From: a virus
Virus record (IMG/VR): IMGVR_UViG_3300001460_000032
Span: 5,832 to 32,964 of that record
Reading direction: 5' to 3' (one strand)
Length of the DNA stretch: 27,133 nt
Part shown: one piece after another, positions 3,123 through 17,769 of the stretch
How positions within the stretch are numbered: the stretch's first letter is position 1
Layout of the letters: each line of letters starts with the position of its first letter
Notes under the pieces: model-generated
What the model saw: only the letters and a program-made list of their open reading frames with translations
Databases searched by the model: none
What the model was told of the DNA's origin: nothing
Translations under genes and position numbers: made by a program

Positions 3123-3145
3123 TTGACTAAAGCATAATTGTGTGC

Positions 3146-3153
3146 TATAAATA
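3146..3153 (+). promoter_or_regulatory. Candidate T4-type late promoter TATAAATA
   Basis: This is an exact match to the T4 late consensus octamer, 24 bases after the gp15 stop. If initiation follows the usual spacing, about 6 bases downstream, +1 falls on or next to the ATG at 3159. It overlaps the 5' end of the longer (TTG-initiated) version of the Nudix frame, so it could be chance in AT-rich DNA. Confidence 0.4.
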
Positions 3154-3158
3154 AACTT

Positions 3159-3581
3159 ATGTATGATGCTGTAGGTACAACTTTTTTATCCCAAGATACA
3201 AAAAAATTCTGTTTAAATAAAAGATCAAAAGAAGTAAGTAATCCTGACACTTGGAGTTTTTGGGGTGGTAAAGTTGAACGTGGCGAAACTGTTATAGGTG
3301 CATTAAAAAGAGAGATTCAAGAAGAAATAGGATTTGTTCCTAAAATTGTAAAAATACATCCATTGGACATTTATCAAAGTATTGATGGACATTTTATGTA
3401 TCATACTTTTGTTATTGTTACACCAACAGAATTTGAGCCAAACATAAACTACGAGTCGCAAGATTATAGCTGGTCAGAAATAAACAAGCTCCCAGCACCA
3501 TTACACCAAGGTGCTAAAAAAACATTGTTAGATAAAAACAATGTTAAAAAACTACAGTTAATAGTAAATAGTATTAGCTAG
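3159..3581 (+). CDS. Nudix hydrolase
   Basis: The protein carries a complete Nudix box matching GX5EX7REUXEEXGU, reading G-KVERG-E, seven residues, then REIQEEIGF. This is the catalytic and divalent-metal-binding loop of enzymes that hydrolyse nucleoside diphosphates linked to another moiety. The substrate cannot be read from sequence; ADP-ribose, oxidised nucleotides, NAD-like compounds or mRNA caps are all possible. The ATG at 3159 is chosen, giving 140 aa. A TTG at 3138 would add seven residues (CAINKL plus the initiator) and neither start has a clear Shine-Dalgarno. The gene is embedded in the + strand neck gene run, 36 bases after gp15, which is odd for a metabolic enzyme. Confidence 0.88.
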   Translation: MYDAVGTTFLSQDTKKFCLNKRSKEVSNPDTWSFWGGKVERGETVIGALKREIQEEIGFVPKIVKIHPLDIYQSIDGHFMYHTFVIVTPTEFEPNINYESQDYSWSEINKLPAPLHQGAKKTLLDKNNVKKLQLIVNSIS

Positions 3582-13756: not shown

Positions 13757-16120
13757 CTACCCACCATTTACTTCATCAACTGCTTTTTTAGTACCACCAG
13801 TATTACTAGCAATTGCACTTAATAATCTAATTGATGTACTATAAAATTCACCTTCTGACGTTTTTGTTGGATCACTTGATCCTGTCATTGGAAGATATTG
13901 ATTCATTACACGCATTTTAGCCTGTGATAAACGTTCTGGATCTAGCATGTCTGTAGAAGTAGCTTTATTATTAGTGCCCATATTGTTAGCACTGTCATTC
14001 ATTGATGCAACAATATCTGCACCGCTTGCCCCAACTGTTTTGTAACCTATACTTTCGTCAAGTTGTGCTTTGTTTACATCAAGATATGTTACTGCTTGTT
14101 GTGTTAATATGTCACGAAGTGCATCTATTAATTGTTGATTGCCTGATTCGTTAACTTTTTTAAGCATAGCATCAAAAGAACCTTTTCTAGTTTGAAGAAC
14201 TTCACCAGTCTCGATGTCTCCTTTAGGAAACATACTTGCAAACTGTTTTGCCAACATTGGTGGTAATTCATTTTGTACACCTGATACAATGTCATTATCA
14301 AACGACATTCTAGTTCTACCTTCTTTTGAATATCTTTTAAGGTAACTTTCATTAAACATTCCTGCGTTTGCTAGAGCGCCGCCGCCAGTTAATGATCTAA
14401 TTTGATTTTCGCCCATGGACATGTTGGCTTGGTGAATTGTACCGGCACCGCCTGCAAATCCTGGTAATGCTAGTTTCATTCCTTTTATGATTGCTCCAGT
14501 AATCATGTCTGCCATTAATGCTAAAGGTGCCGCCAATGCTTTAATCATTGCTTGACCTAAAGTTAAACCTTGGAACTCGCCAATAAAATTCATAAATCTA
14601 TTAACAAGATTAGCAATTTTATTTGCAATTGAACCTGCATTTTCTACAAGTTTTTTTGCAAGGTCAATACCCATAGTAGTAATACGTTCCATTGCTCCAC
14701 TTATTGCACCTAGTATTCTATCATTGCCAAACAGTTCAGTAAAGAATTTGTTAAACGCAACTGATAATTTTGCAGTAACACGTTCAAAGTTTATAAATGC
14801 TACAGATAATTTGTCAATCTGTGATTCTCGTCTTAATTTTTGTAAATCTTTGTACTGTTCTAATGCACCTTTTTTCTGTATCTCTTGAACTTGATTAATC
14901 AGTGCAATTTGTTGTCTTGCCGCGCCTGAGAACTGTGTGTTAGAACGTTCAATAAGACTTAATCTTTCTCTTTCAGCATCAGATGTATTTGCAATTTCTG
15001 TTATTAGTTGACTAGTTGCTTTTGCGGCACCTTGATCGTCTAAACTATCTATATTATCAATTAGTGAACTTAATGAGTTATATAATTTTCTATTTACTGC
15101 TAATAATTCTCTACCAGCTTCTGTGAAAAATAATCCACCTCGACCGTATGCAGTTGTAAATGTTGTTGCAAGTTGATCACCAAACTCAGTACCAAGTCCT
15201 GCAAACATACCTGTTACTGTTTGTGCGGCTCTAAGTACTCTGTCTTGTACTATTGCTGGTAACACATTTAGTTTATTTGTAAATGCTTCAACAGCCGTTG
15301 ATCCTTTAATAACTGCCGCAATTTGATCTCTACTTACATTTGCTAACTGTGAAAATGCTGTAATATTCTGTGCATATCTCACAACCATCTCTTCTAATTG
15401 GTCATTACTTTTTCCACCAAGCATACTTGCTGTTCTTAATTGGTCCATAAAGTCACCAGTGTATTCAGTCAACTCTGCTAGACTCATACCCAACATACCT
15501 TGAGCTTGTAAGTTATCTCTAATTTGTACATTTAAATCTGAAAATGCTTGGGCACCAATAATACCAACTGACGTTGAAAACTTTCCAAGTAATTCTGTAT
15601 ATTGTGCAATACCCATTTCAGCCGCCACTGCCGCTTTTGCTAATCCTAATGAACCTTGTTCCATTCTAAAGCCCATTGCAAATACTTGTCTAAATGAATC
15701 TGAAAACTGTTTTAATCTTCCAATAACAAAACCAACTGCCGCGGCAAAGCCACCAATTACAGCACCAGCTATTCCTAGCTTGCCAGCAAATCGTTGTACT
15801 GCCATGTTTACTGATTTAAATGGTGTTGACACATTCTTTTTAACTAAATCTTTAGTATAATCTCCACCTTTTTTATTCAACTGTGTAACTAGTTTTTTTG
15901 AATTTTCTGAACTATTTTTATTAAGTTGTTCAATCCTAGCAACTACGTCTTTTAAGTGTTTTGTTTGTTTTTCTTGTTCTTTTGAATCTTTTGTGTCAGA
16001 TTTCTTCATTGCACCTAAGGCTACTGCAATCTTTTTTTGCGTTTCCTCAGTGGCCCATTTAGGAAGACCAGAATCGTCCCAATTTATTTGATCTATAGTA
16101 ATTTTGTCGCCGTCAGCCAT
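13757..16120 (-). CDS. Tape-measure-like tail protein (gp29-like, tentative)
   Basis: This 787-aa, mainly helical protein has a charged N-terminal coiled-coil region (about residues 25-95), a Gly/Ala-rich hydrophobic segment at 115-134 (GIAGAVIGGFAAAVGFVIG), a long helical middle, and a second hydrophobic stretch around LALMADMITGAIIKGMKLAL. That is the usual pattern of tail tape-measure proteins. In T4 the tail-length role belongs to gp29 (590 aa), encoded close to genes 26 and 51. Here the divergent neighbour is the gp26-like gene, which supports the same job. Direct sequence similarity to T4 gp29 is not evident to me. No strong Shine-Dalgarno precedes the ATG at 16120. Confidence 0.7.
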   Translation of the reverse strand: MADGDKITIDQINWDDSGLPKWATEETQKKIAVALGAMKKSDTKDSKEQEKQTKHLKDVVARIEQLNKNSSENSKKLVTQLNKKGGDYTKDLVKKNVSTPFKSVNMAVQRFAGKLGIAGAVIGGFAAAVGFVIGRLKQFSDSFRQVFAMGFRMEQGSLGLAKAAVAAEMGIAQYTELLGKFSTSVGIIGAQAFSDLNVQIRDNLQAQGMLGMSLAELTEYTGDFMDQLRTASMLGGKSNDQLEEMVVRYAQNITAFSQLANVSRDQIAAVIKGSTAVEAFTNKLNVLPAIVQDRVLRAAQTVTGMFAGLGTEFGDQLATTFTTAYGRGGLFFTEAGRELLAVNRKLYNSLSSLIDNIDSLDDQGAAKATSQLITEIANTSDAERERLSLIERSNTQFSGAARQQIALINQVQEIQKKGALEQYKDLQKLRRESQIDKLSVAFINFERVTAKLSVAFNKFFTELFGNDRILGAISGAMERITTMGIDLAKKLVENAGSIANKIANLVNRFMNFIGEFQGLTLGQAMIKALAAPLALMADMITGAIIKGMKLALPGFAGGAGTIHQANMSMGENQIRSLTGGGALANAGMFNESYLKRYSKEGRTRMSFDNDIVSGVQNELPPMLAKQFASMFPKGDIETGEVLQTRKGSFDAMLKKVNESGNQQLIDALRDILTQQAVTYLDVNKAQLDESIGYKTVGASGADIVASMNDSANNMGTNNKATSTDMLDPERLSQAKMRVMNQYLPMTGSSDPTKTSEGEFYSTSIRLLSAIASNTGGTKKAVDEVNGG

Positions 16121-16180: not shown

Positions 16181-16217
16181 GTTAAAGTTATATACGTATA
16201 TAATAGGAAATAAAAAC

Positions 16218-17060
16218 ATGAGTGAAAACAAATTATCAAAATATTATAGAGCACCAAAACTGTATGTTCGTGTTCCGAGTCAGGGTGCATTTAATCCTGA
16301 AGTAGAATCAGCAATGGGTGGAGAACTAGCTGTTATGGCTATGACTGGCCGTGATGAAACTATGATCAAAAATCCAGATGCATTACTTAACGGAGAAGCA
16401 GTAACATCAGCAATTAAAAGTTGTGTTCCAGGTATTCAAGAACCAAAAGACATGCCAATTACTGATATTGATACATTGTTAATTGCCATTAAAATTGCTA
16501 CCACAGGAGAAGAGCATGAAGTAAGTGCAACTTGTCCTAAGTGTAAAACTGAATCTAGAGGAGTTGTTAATTTAAGAAATATTTTACCAACTGCTAAATT
16601 GCTTGATTCAGAGTATCCTGTAAAATTAGATACAGGAGTAACTGTATATGTTAGACCATATACTTTTTCAATGCAGACAGAAGCGGCATTGGCGGCATTT
16701 GACGAAACTAAAACACTTCAAAATTTGACACAGGAAAAAGAAATTAATTCTGAAAGTATGTCAATTTATAATAAGAGTTTTAGAAGAATGGCAGATATGA
16801 GCGTATCGTTATTAGGTAGAAGTATTATCAAAGTTGTTACACCAGAAGGTGACGAAGTTAGTGACCCAAATGAAATATTTGCGTTTATCCAAAACATAGA
16901 TTCAAATGCGGCGAAACAAATTGACGAAGTACTTGCAAAAATTAATAGTTTAGATATCGATAAGAAAATTGAAATGACTTGCGGCAAAGAAACATGTGGC
17001 AATGTATGGACATCAGAAATTGATTTCAATCCTACGGATTTTTTCGCAGTTGGCTCTTAA
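16218..17060 (+). CDS. 26: gp26-like baseplate hub / tail assembly protein
   Basis: This 280-aa protein has the features of the T4 gp26 family: an N-terminal LYVRVPSQG segment, a helical region ending in IDTLLIAIKIATTGE, then a Cys-pair domain. Cysteines at 106 and 109 (TCPKCKTES) and at 255 and 260 (CGKETCGNVW) probably bind zinc. The C-terminal FNPTDFF motif is also typical. AGGAAA precedes the ATG and a CATAAATA box lies 44 bases upstream. Near the 3' end the codons GAT TTT TTC give a canonical T_TTT_TTC slippery heptamer, after which the -1 frame stays open for 76 codons. The unshifted product stops at 17060; a shifted one would be 352 aa. Confidence 0.85.
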   Translation: MSENKLSKYYRAPKLYVRVPSQGAFNPEVESAMGGELAVMAMTGRDETMIKNPDALLNGEAVTSAIKSCVPGIQEPKDMPITDIDTLLIAIKIATTGEEHEVSATCPKCKTESRGVVNLRNILPTAKLLDSEYPVKLDTGVTVYVRPYTFSMQTEAALAAFDETKTLQNLTQEKEINSESMSIYNKSFRRMADMSVSLLGRSIIKVVTPEGDEVSDPNEIFAFIQNIDSNAAKQIDEVLAKINSLDIDKKIEMTCGKETCGNVWTSEIDFNPTDFFAVGS

Positions 17061-17074
17061 AGGCTGAGCCTGAC
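17039..17074 (+). promoter_or_regulatory. Programmed -1 frameshift signal
   Basis: T TTT TTC at 17039-17045 is in register with the gp26-like frame (X_XXY_YYZ). Three to six bases later a hairpin can form: GGCTC (17052-17056) with GAGCC (17066-17070), extendable by GTT (17049-17051) with GAC (17072-17074) across one bulged base. The zero-frame stop (17058-17060) lies in the loop. Confidence 0.8.
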
Positions 17075-17275
17075 CAAATAAATGTCTACTTTGAAAAGTT
17101 GGCTAAAGAACGTGATACTATAAAACAACAGATAACCGAAATCTGTTGGTACATGCGTGGTTCCCTTACTTGGGAAGAAGCATGGTCTCTTTCCGAAGTC
17201 GATCGAAATGACTTAATTAAATTTGTCGGTGAAAATGCCGAGCGATTTAAAAAGTCTGGACAAGTAGTTGTTTAA
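17045..17275 (+). CDS. -1 frame C-terminal extension of the gp26-like protein
   Basis: These 76 codons (beginning RSWLLKAEPDQ, with ICWYMRGSLTWEEAW and ERFKKSGQ further on) are open in the -1 frame but have no usable start: the frame opens after a TGA at 17021 and its first ATG falls in the middle of the conserved part. The MRG-LT-EEAW pattern followed by an ENAE-KKSG end recalls small proteins encoded next to gene 26 in marine T4-like phages. In T4 the neighbour of 26 is gene 51, another hub assembly factor. The simplest reading is a frameshifted fusion analogous to G/GT-type tail assembly chaperones. The stop at 17273-17275 overlaps the opposing nuclease stop in one TTAA. Confidence 0.78.
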   Translation, partial: RSWLLKAEPDQINVYFEKLAKERDTIKQQITEICWYMRGSLTWEEAWSLSEVDRNDLIKFVGENAERFKKSGQVVV

Positions 17276-17769
17276 TGAGATTGCTGTTTAACAGCATCTG
17301 AATTTAATTGCCAAAAATCTTTGTATTCAATGTAATGGAATTGTTTATAATCTTTAGTATGTTTTAGATTGTTCCATTGTTTTGGATCCCAAAGTACAAA
17401 TTCACCTTGTCTTGATATTTTAACACACAATAACCATTTATCATTTTCTTCGCATGACTCTTGTGACTGTACAATAAAACTATCTAACTGTTTTACTTCT
17501 TTACCAAGTGCAAGATTATGCCATTGTAGTTCACCATAATTTTTTGCCTCAATAACCAATAGTGGAAATGAATCAGGTGGAATAATATCACCTTTGAATC
17601 CTCTTGTTTGATTTTCAGAAAGTGTTTCTGTTCTTATAATATTTTTGCCGCCAACAAATGCACCACTATAAGGTACTCTTGTAAATGACTCTTGATACAA
17701 TTGGCTTAAAAAATTAGCAACATCTCTTTCGTATGTTTTGCCTTTGTTTTTTGACTTTGCTCCACTCAT
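17272..17769 (-). CDS. PD-(D/E)XK nuclease, possibly Holliday-junction-resolvase-like
   Basis: The 165-aa protein has the core of the PD-(D/E)XK fold: Glu14 in the first helix (KGKTYERDVANFL), Asp61 in GFKGDIIPP, and the E-x-K pair Glu74/Lys76 in LLVIEAKNY. The RVPYSGAFVGG stretch between helix and first catalytic strand is common in archaeal-Hjc-like and phage resolvase-like members. It probably cuts branched or recombination-intermediate DNA, which fits a phage that also encodes gp46/gp47, but a restriction-type or repair role is equally possible. The ATG overlaps the stop of a small upstream frame by ATGA; an AAGG lies 11 bases upstream. Confidence 0.8.
   Translation of the reverse strand: MSGAKSKNKGKTYERDVANFLSQLYQESFTRVPYSGAFVGGKNIIRTETLSENQTRGFKGDIIPPDSFPLLVIEAKNYGELQWHNLALGKEVKQLDSFIVQSQESCEENDKWLLCVKISRQGEFVLWDPKQWNNLKHTKDYKQFHYIEYKDFWQLNSDAVKQQSH

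Follow-up and report, generated by a model that had tools for sequence, protein, structure and literature searches.

A T_TTT_TTC slippery site probably yields short and long forms of a gp26-like tail assembly chaperone in a T4-type jumbo phage

The window analysed here, a stretch of 27,133 nucleotides from IMG/VR virus record IMGVR_UViG_3300001460_000032, carries T4-type genes recognised with Pfam and PHROG profiles, among them those for the portal protein gp20 and a gp53-like protein. The virus record containing it is 50.7 kb long, and the window probably derives from a jumbo phage, because close relatives lie on contigs of up to 328 kb. The gene at the centre of this study (16218-17060, plus strand) is an open reading frame of 280 codons, preceded by a probable Shine-Dalgarno sequence, AGGA, at 16205-16208, 9 nt before the ATG at 16218. 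Divergent from it, a gene on the minus strand (13757-16120) encodes a tape-measure-like protein of 787 aa. On the other side lies a convergent gene for a PDDEXK/RusA-like nuclease (17272-17769, minus strand; PF24608, 3e-23; phrog_244), and the tail gene region of the window also holds a Nudix-like ORF (3138-3581, plus strand), whose Nudix box was recognised by eye.

The 280-aa product was identified as gp26-like, in agreement with the original prediction, by its matches to Pfam PF12322 (T4_baseplate, 1e-19) and phrog_150 (baseplate hub, 1e-23), and its AlphaFold2 model has a pLDDT of 87. This core protein contains two Cys pairs in a zinc-ribbon-like arrangement. Searches of the PDB returned nothing significant for the core sequence and, with Foldseek, nothing at E 0.001 for the core model. 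A weak alignment with the HK97 tail assembly chaperone 2ob9 (HK97 gp13 fold) covers 102 of 107 residues with an rmsd of 4.7 and a Z of 6.0, and is tied with unrelated helical chains.

Near its end the gene reads GAT TTT TTC GCA GTT GGC TCT TAA, where T_TTT_TTC (17039-17045) stands in the X_XXY_YYZ register as a candidate -1 shift site and four sense codons separate it from the stop. Such a heptamer in the correct register near the gp26-like stop had been predicted, together with a -1 frame open for 76 codons, and both were borne out: the frame is open from 17024 and runs for 76 codons after the heptamer to a TAA at 17273-17275, giving a predicted fusion of 276+76 = 352 residues, of which the extension (17045-17275, plus strand) would form the C-terminal part. 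The extension lacks a usable start codon, as was also foreseen: a scan of the -1 frame for ATG, GTG and TTG, starting where it opens and ending 45 nt beyond the stop, gives a single TTG, which lies 39 nt downstream of the stop and has no Shine-Dalgarno-like sequence. In-frame X_XXY_YYZ heptamers were found in the overlap of four of the 40 open frames of at least 90 codons in the window, and of these only the gp26-like frame is followed by a long extension in the -1 frame, which reaches 71 codons beyond its stop; the other three reach 13, 4 and 7. A sequencing error at the T run was considered and ruled out, because 166 distinct homologues, isolates among them, have a comparable slip site.

The extension reads like a real conserved protein, as originally proposed, with a dN/dS of 0.14 in the -1 frame across the window and seven close relatives, while the other two frames contain at least four stops in the same set. 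It had been said to end exactly at the next gene; the stop codons do overlap, by two bases, in a region given as 17272-17275, but that gene is convergent. As a single sequence the extension matched neither Pfam nor PHROG, and a sequence search with the extension alone matched only four phage records; its homology was reached by building profiles. The profile of jumbo-type extensions matched that of T4-type extensions with a probability of 76% and an E of 2e-5 (reversed control, 0.6%), and at this level of profile comparison the extension and the C-terminal end of T4 gp51 are homologous. Its helical AlphaFold2 model has a pLDDT of 89, and a Foldseek search with it returned generic helix-loop-helix matches only.

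Homologues were gathered from annotated phages and IMG/VR, giving 166 distinct loci, 88 of the jumbo type and 78 of the cyanophage type; since the sequences are related, the heptamer counts from this set are not independent. All 88 jumbo-type loci carry an in-frame -1 heptamer, which is T_TTT_TTC in 75 and A_AAT_TTT alone in 13, and none of them lacks both. A scan with cyanophage-type cores likewise found T_TTT_TTC in 78 of 78 distinct loci. In the nine loci that were inspected first (the window, Phosso, Atu_ph07, PA5oct, XbC2, BF, SCTP-2, 121Q and RaK2), T_TTT_TTC is always present and the -1 frame reaches 59-75 codons beyond the stop. The TTT codon of the heptamer lies 3-13 codons upstream of the stop in jumbo-type loci, that is, its position shifts and the heptamer stays. 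The codon preceding TTT_TTC may be AAT, GAT, AGT, CAT, ACT or CGT and ends in T in 75 of 75 cases, whereas, within these genes, between about a quarter and two fifths of codons of this kind are the synonyms ending in C. The heptamer and the -1 frame were expected to persist while the proteins diverge, and this holds across the 166 homologues. A_AAT_TTT is also a canonical slip site, with a run of only 5-7 T. In some loci (L041, L045, L053-L055, L060, L061, L069, L070 and L075) TTT TTC is replaced by TTT TCA or TTT TCC and A_AAT_TTT alone is left, a natural switch of slip site, and most of these have a long imperfect stem downstream.

Downstream of the heptamer in the window, GGCTC (17052-17056) pairs with GAGCC (17066-17070) in a 5-bp stem at a spacer of 6 nt. 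RNAfold adds three pairs past a bulge (17049-17051 with 17072-17074), in line with the extendable hairpin 3-6 bases on that had been proposed, and this stem-loop (17052-17070; 17049-17074 with the extended pairing) is the probable stimulator. Both arms are invariant in seven close relatives that differ around them; the block TGGCTCTTAA.GGCTGAGCC changes at one loop base only, whereas the spacer that separates it from the heptamer is variable. Distant relatives form stems at the same place from different sequences, as in the replacement of AGGATCT/AGATCCT by AAGATCT/AGATCTT. Within a subgroup of 12 loci, 84% of the cells are paired and eight cells are double-changed in a compensatory manner, and this pairing exceeds nearly every shuffle and every slid register. 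We also compared folding energies with synonymous-codon shuffles that keep the -1 protein, for 60 loci with an extension identity below 70%: the first 75 nt downstream gave a mean z of -2.1, against -0.5 for a control stretch 90 nt further on (Mann-Whitney p 5e-8). The hairpin of the window itself has a z of only -1.5 and is thus not significant alone, and the same shuffle test showed no excess of downstream structure in a few enterobacterial relatives (L004, L005 and L008). A pseudoknot between the loop UUAAAG and a downstream CUUUGA, seen by eye, was dropped because relatives L013 and L014 break the pairing.

The cyanophage-type loci have a different neighbourhood. A Shine-Dalgarno-like sequence of the GAGG type occurs within 20 nt before the heptamer in 68 of the 78 loci, and a GAGGG about 9-14 nt upstream of T_TTT_TTC was noted in L126, L127, L130 and L148-L227. 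Its distance from the slip site is that of the dnaX frameshift stimulator; in jumbo-type loci a downstream stem is found instead. Because GAGGG partly encodes a conserved Glu-Gly, its role as a stimulator is putative.

We used phrog_150 (282 positions) as a ruler for the coverage of core and extension. T4 gp51 covers positions 3-281 in one frame, T4 gp26 only 10-236, and RB49 has the same arrangement; T4 gp26 is thus the homologue of the short part, and T4 gp51 that of the short part plus the extension in frame. The original prediction had treated T4 genes 26 and 51 as separate; they are indeed two genes, but gp51 is more than a separate protein: it is a long form with the extension fused in frame. 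At the end of T4 gene 26 the sequence is GAG TTC TTT GAG, where the heptamer is lost and the -1 frame closed. In P-SSM2, S-PM2, HTVC008M, Cr30 and phiM12, core and extension fall in separate stretches of phrog_150, and the sequences of these five, like that of KVP40, read as a slip site in a T run and an extension that follows the core in the -1 frame. T4 and RB49, in which gene 26 is short and gene 51 long, have lost the frameshift layout that KVP40, cyanophages, HTVC008M, Cr30 and phiM12 possess. KVP40 (L132), which keeps this layout, is a member of the Straboviridae, and the two-gene arrangement therefore probably arose within the Straboviridae.

We consider it likely that frameshifting on U_UUU_UUC is the ancestral route to the chaperone in the whole T4 superfamily and was retained by jumbo phages, cyanophages, the pelagiphage HTVC008M, rhizobial and Caulobacter phages and KVP40, while in T4 and RB49 its place was taken by two genes, the short 26 and the fused long 51; two kinds of stimulator would then serve it, the downstream stem in jumbo phages and the upstream Shine-Dalgarno-like GAGGG at dnaX-like spacing in cyanophages. 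A 2016 review described low-level G-T frameshifting as conserved in long-tailed phages "except T4" (PMC5009743); as the slip site and the -1 extension extend across much of the T4 superfamily, the exception is therefore T4's own lineage. The locus would offer a clean evolutionary case of frameshifting replaced by two genes, and a testable rule for how such phages set their chaperone ratio. For annotators, it suggests joining pairs now listed as 'baseplate hub' and 'hypothetical protein'.

Frameshifted chaperones are familiar from other phages. The lambda pair gpG/gpGT slips on G_GGA_AAG, compared with U_UUU_UUC and a stem here, and the chaperone gene here does not directly precede the tape-measure-like gene within an operon but is divergent from it. 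In P2, a contractile-tail phage, the overlapping chaperone frames of gpE/gpE+E' are joined by -1 frameshifting, and the joined frames and the contractile tail are what our locus shares with it. The tail assembly chaperone (TAC) loci of Vandenendeviridae and Andersonviridae (Adele, Moogle) have a conserved -1 frameshift beside the tape measure gene and a T-rich slip site (PMC10885494), but they belong to other phage families and their slip motif is GTTTTT; the extension model matched the Moogle 'tape measure chaperone' structurally, weakly, at E 1.4. The T4-like chaperones of the gp26/gp51 type named by Vladimirov, Gautam and Davidson in 2022 (Virology 566:9), as cited in PMC10885494 and PMC12846349, represent the same gene family as here; the latter paper credits that work with slippery poly-T sites in some T4-like TAC-N genes. 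To judge from these citing papers, the kind of system, a frameshifted T4-like tail assembly chaperone, is already known since 2022. In the related literature, with the 2022 study represented by the papers that cite it, we did not find stated the universality across jumbo phage and cyanophage lineages, the A_AAT_TTT variant or the retention of downstream stems beyond coding need.

The divergent neighbour had been called tape-measure-like, and its match to phrog_1293 (tail length tape measure) agrees, weakly, at 2e-4; it has a hydrophobic segment near residues 111-133. A script found a divergent ORF of at least 400 codons beside the gene in 92 of 95 loci, in addition to the window, and the neighbour is 716-832 aa long across the isolates measured in full. 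The annotated 205-aa tape measure of Atu_ph07 was left out of the evidence. Tape measure proteins account for about 0.15 nm of tail per residue, and by this rule the 722 residues of CBB_251, the tape-measure-like neighbour in CBB, would correspond to about 108 nm. The CBB report gives a tail of 123 nm including collar and baseplate and the detection of CBB_251 in virions by mass spectrometry, and the accessible entries of its virion list do not include the gp26-like CBB_250 (PMC5259590). T4 gp51 is needed for assembly and absent from the particle (PMC3004832). The two lambda forms occur at a ratio of about 30:1; the short one covers the tape measure, the long one brings in the tube protein, and the finished virion retains neither (PMC5009743). 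On these grounds the lambda analogy is a good one for the chaperone, and from it we infer the client and the ratio. The G/GT parallel drawn originally is likewise sound, because a gp26 homologue adjoins a tape-measure-like gene.

Our main reading, to which we give a probability of about 0.88, is that the locus encodes a two-form tail assembly chaperone of a T4-type jumbo phage, with a 280-aa short form and a 352-aa long form made by a -1 slip, beside a tape-measure-like gene. As in lambda, two forms of the chaperone, one short and one long, are very probably made, because the slip site is kept in all 166 relatives compared. Most ribosomes would stop at 17060 and release the short form, and a smaller share, delayed at the stem-loop (17052-17070), would slip back one base on U_UUU_UUC, where the two Phe tRNAs would shift their pairing to the -1 frame, and would continue to 17275, adding an extra helical domain in the long form. 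By analogy with gpG/gpGT, many short and few long forms may cover the tape measure protein, for which the product of the divergent neighbour (13757-16120) is the likeliest candidate; the extension may recruit tail-tube subunits, and both forms may leave before the virion is completed.

Ribosomal frameshifting as such at T_TTT_TTC appears to us nearly certain, and the two ways of doing without it are improbable. The extension could be a separate small protein made without frameshifting, its translation being either coupled to that of gp26 or re-initiated behind the gp26 stop; its database annotation as a separate gene would agree with this. The core stop overlaps an ATG as TAATG in XbC2, BF, 121Q and KVP40 and as TGATG in phiM12. 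Homologues in which the extension has its own start, which the original prediction had weighed against itself, are thus seen in part of the set only, a -1-frame ATG lying near the stop in 76 of 78 cyanophage-type loci and in only 9 of 87 of the jumbo type, yet the heptamer is kept in every one of the cyanophage-type loci. Moreover, the window and about half of the 87 jumbo-type loci have no ATG, GTG or TTG suitably placed near the extension start; a separate protein would need neither the heptamer nor an open frame upstream of the stop, both of which are universal; T4 and RB49 hold both parts in one polypeptide, gp51; and the distance of the cyanophage GAGGG to the heptamer is that of a frameshift stimulator, with the ATG about 24 nt away from the GAGGG. 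We therefore regard re-initiation instead of frameshifting as very unlikely. A third, independently started extension product beside the frameshift product is possible in the enterobacterial relatives L004, L005 and L007, whose core stop overlaps an ATG, and in the cyanophage-type relatives, because an ATG lies at or just after their core stop. Loci with a -1-frame ATG at or just past the core stop are L004, L005 and L007, L126-L131 and L148-L227 (e.g. TAATG, TAAGTATG). Slippage of the RNA polymerase on the T6 run, with the two forms made from edited mRNAs, would suit a homopolymer run in an AT-rich phage, but runs of six T are short for transcriptional slippage, the 13 loci with A_AAT_TTT have a tandem ribosomal slip site with a run of only 5-7 T, and a conserved downstream stem at a short spacer suits ribosomes; we hold this to be hardly credible.

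Granted frameshifting, the chaperone role is highly probable. That the frameshifted gp26 would instead be a two-form part of the baseplate hub or a hub-assembly factor is suggested by the annotation of T4 gp26 and gp51 as hub proteins or hub assembly chaperones (PMC3004832) and by the baseplate names in Pfam and PHROG. These names do not conflict with a chaperone, because tape-measure loading belongs to T4 hub assembly, and a tape-measure-like ORF adjoins the gene in nearly all loci; in addition, the published re-identification, as cited in PMC10885494 and PMC12846349, is as tail assembly chaperones. We consider the hub role unlikely and favour the tape-measure chaperone.

A comparable arrangement may occur elsewhere. 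The core and extension models matched the near-consecutive BFVD entries A0A343LED6/A0A343LED7 of Leptospira phage LE4, and A0A8S5UTN1/A0A8S5UTP2 in ctYA416, where the core-like protein has 596 aa. As core and extension match near-consecutive entries in both, this suggests the same split layout in other phage groups.
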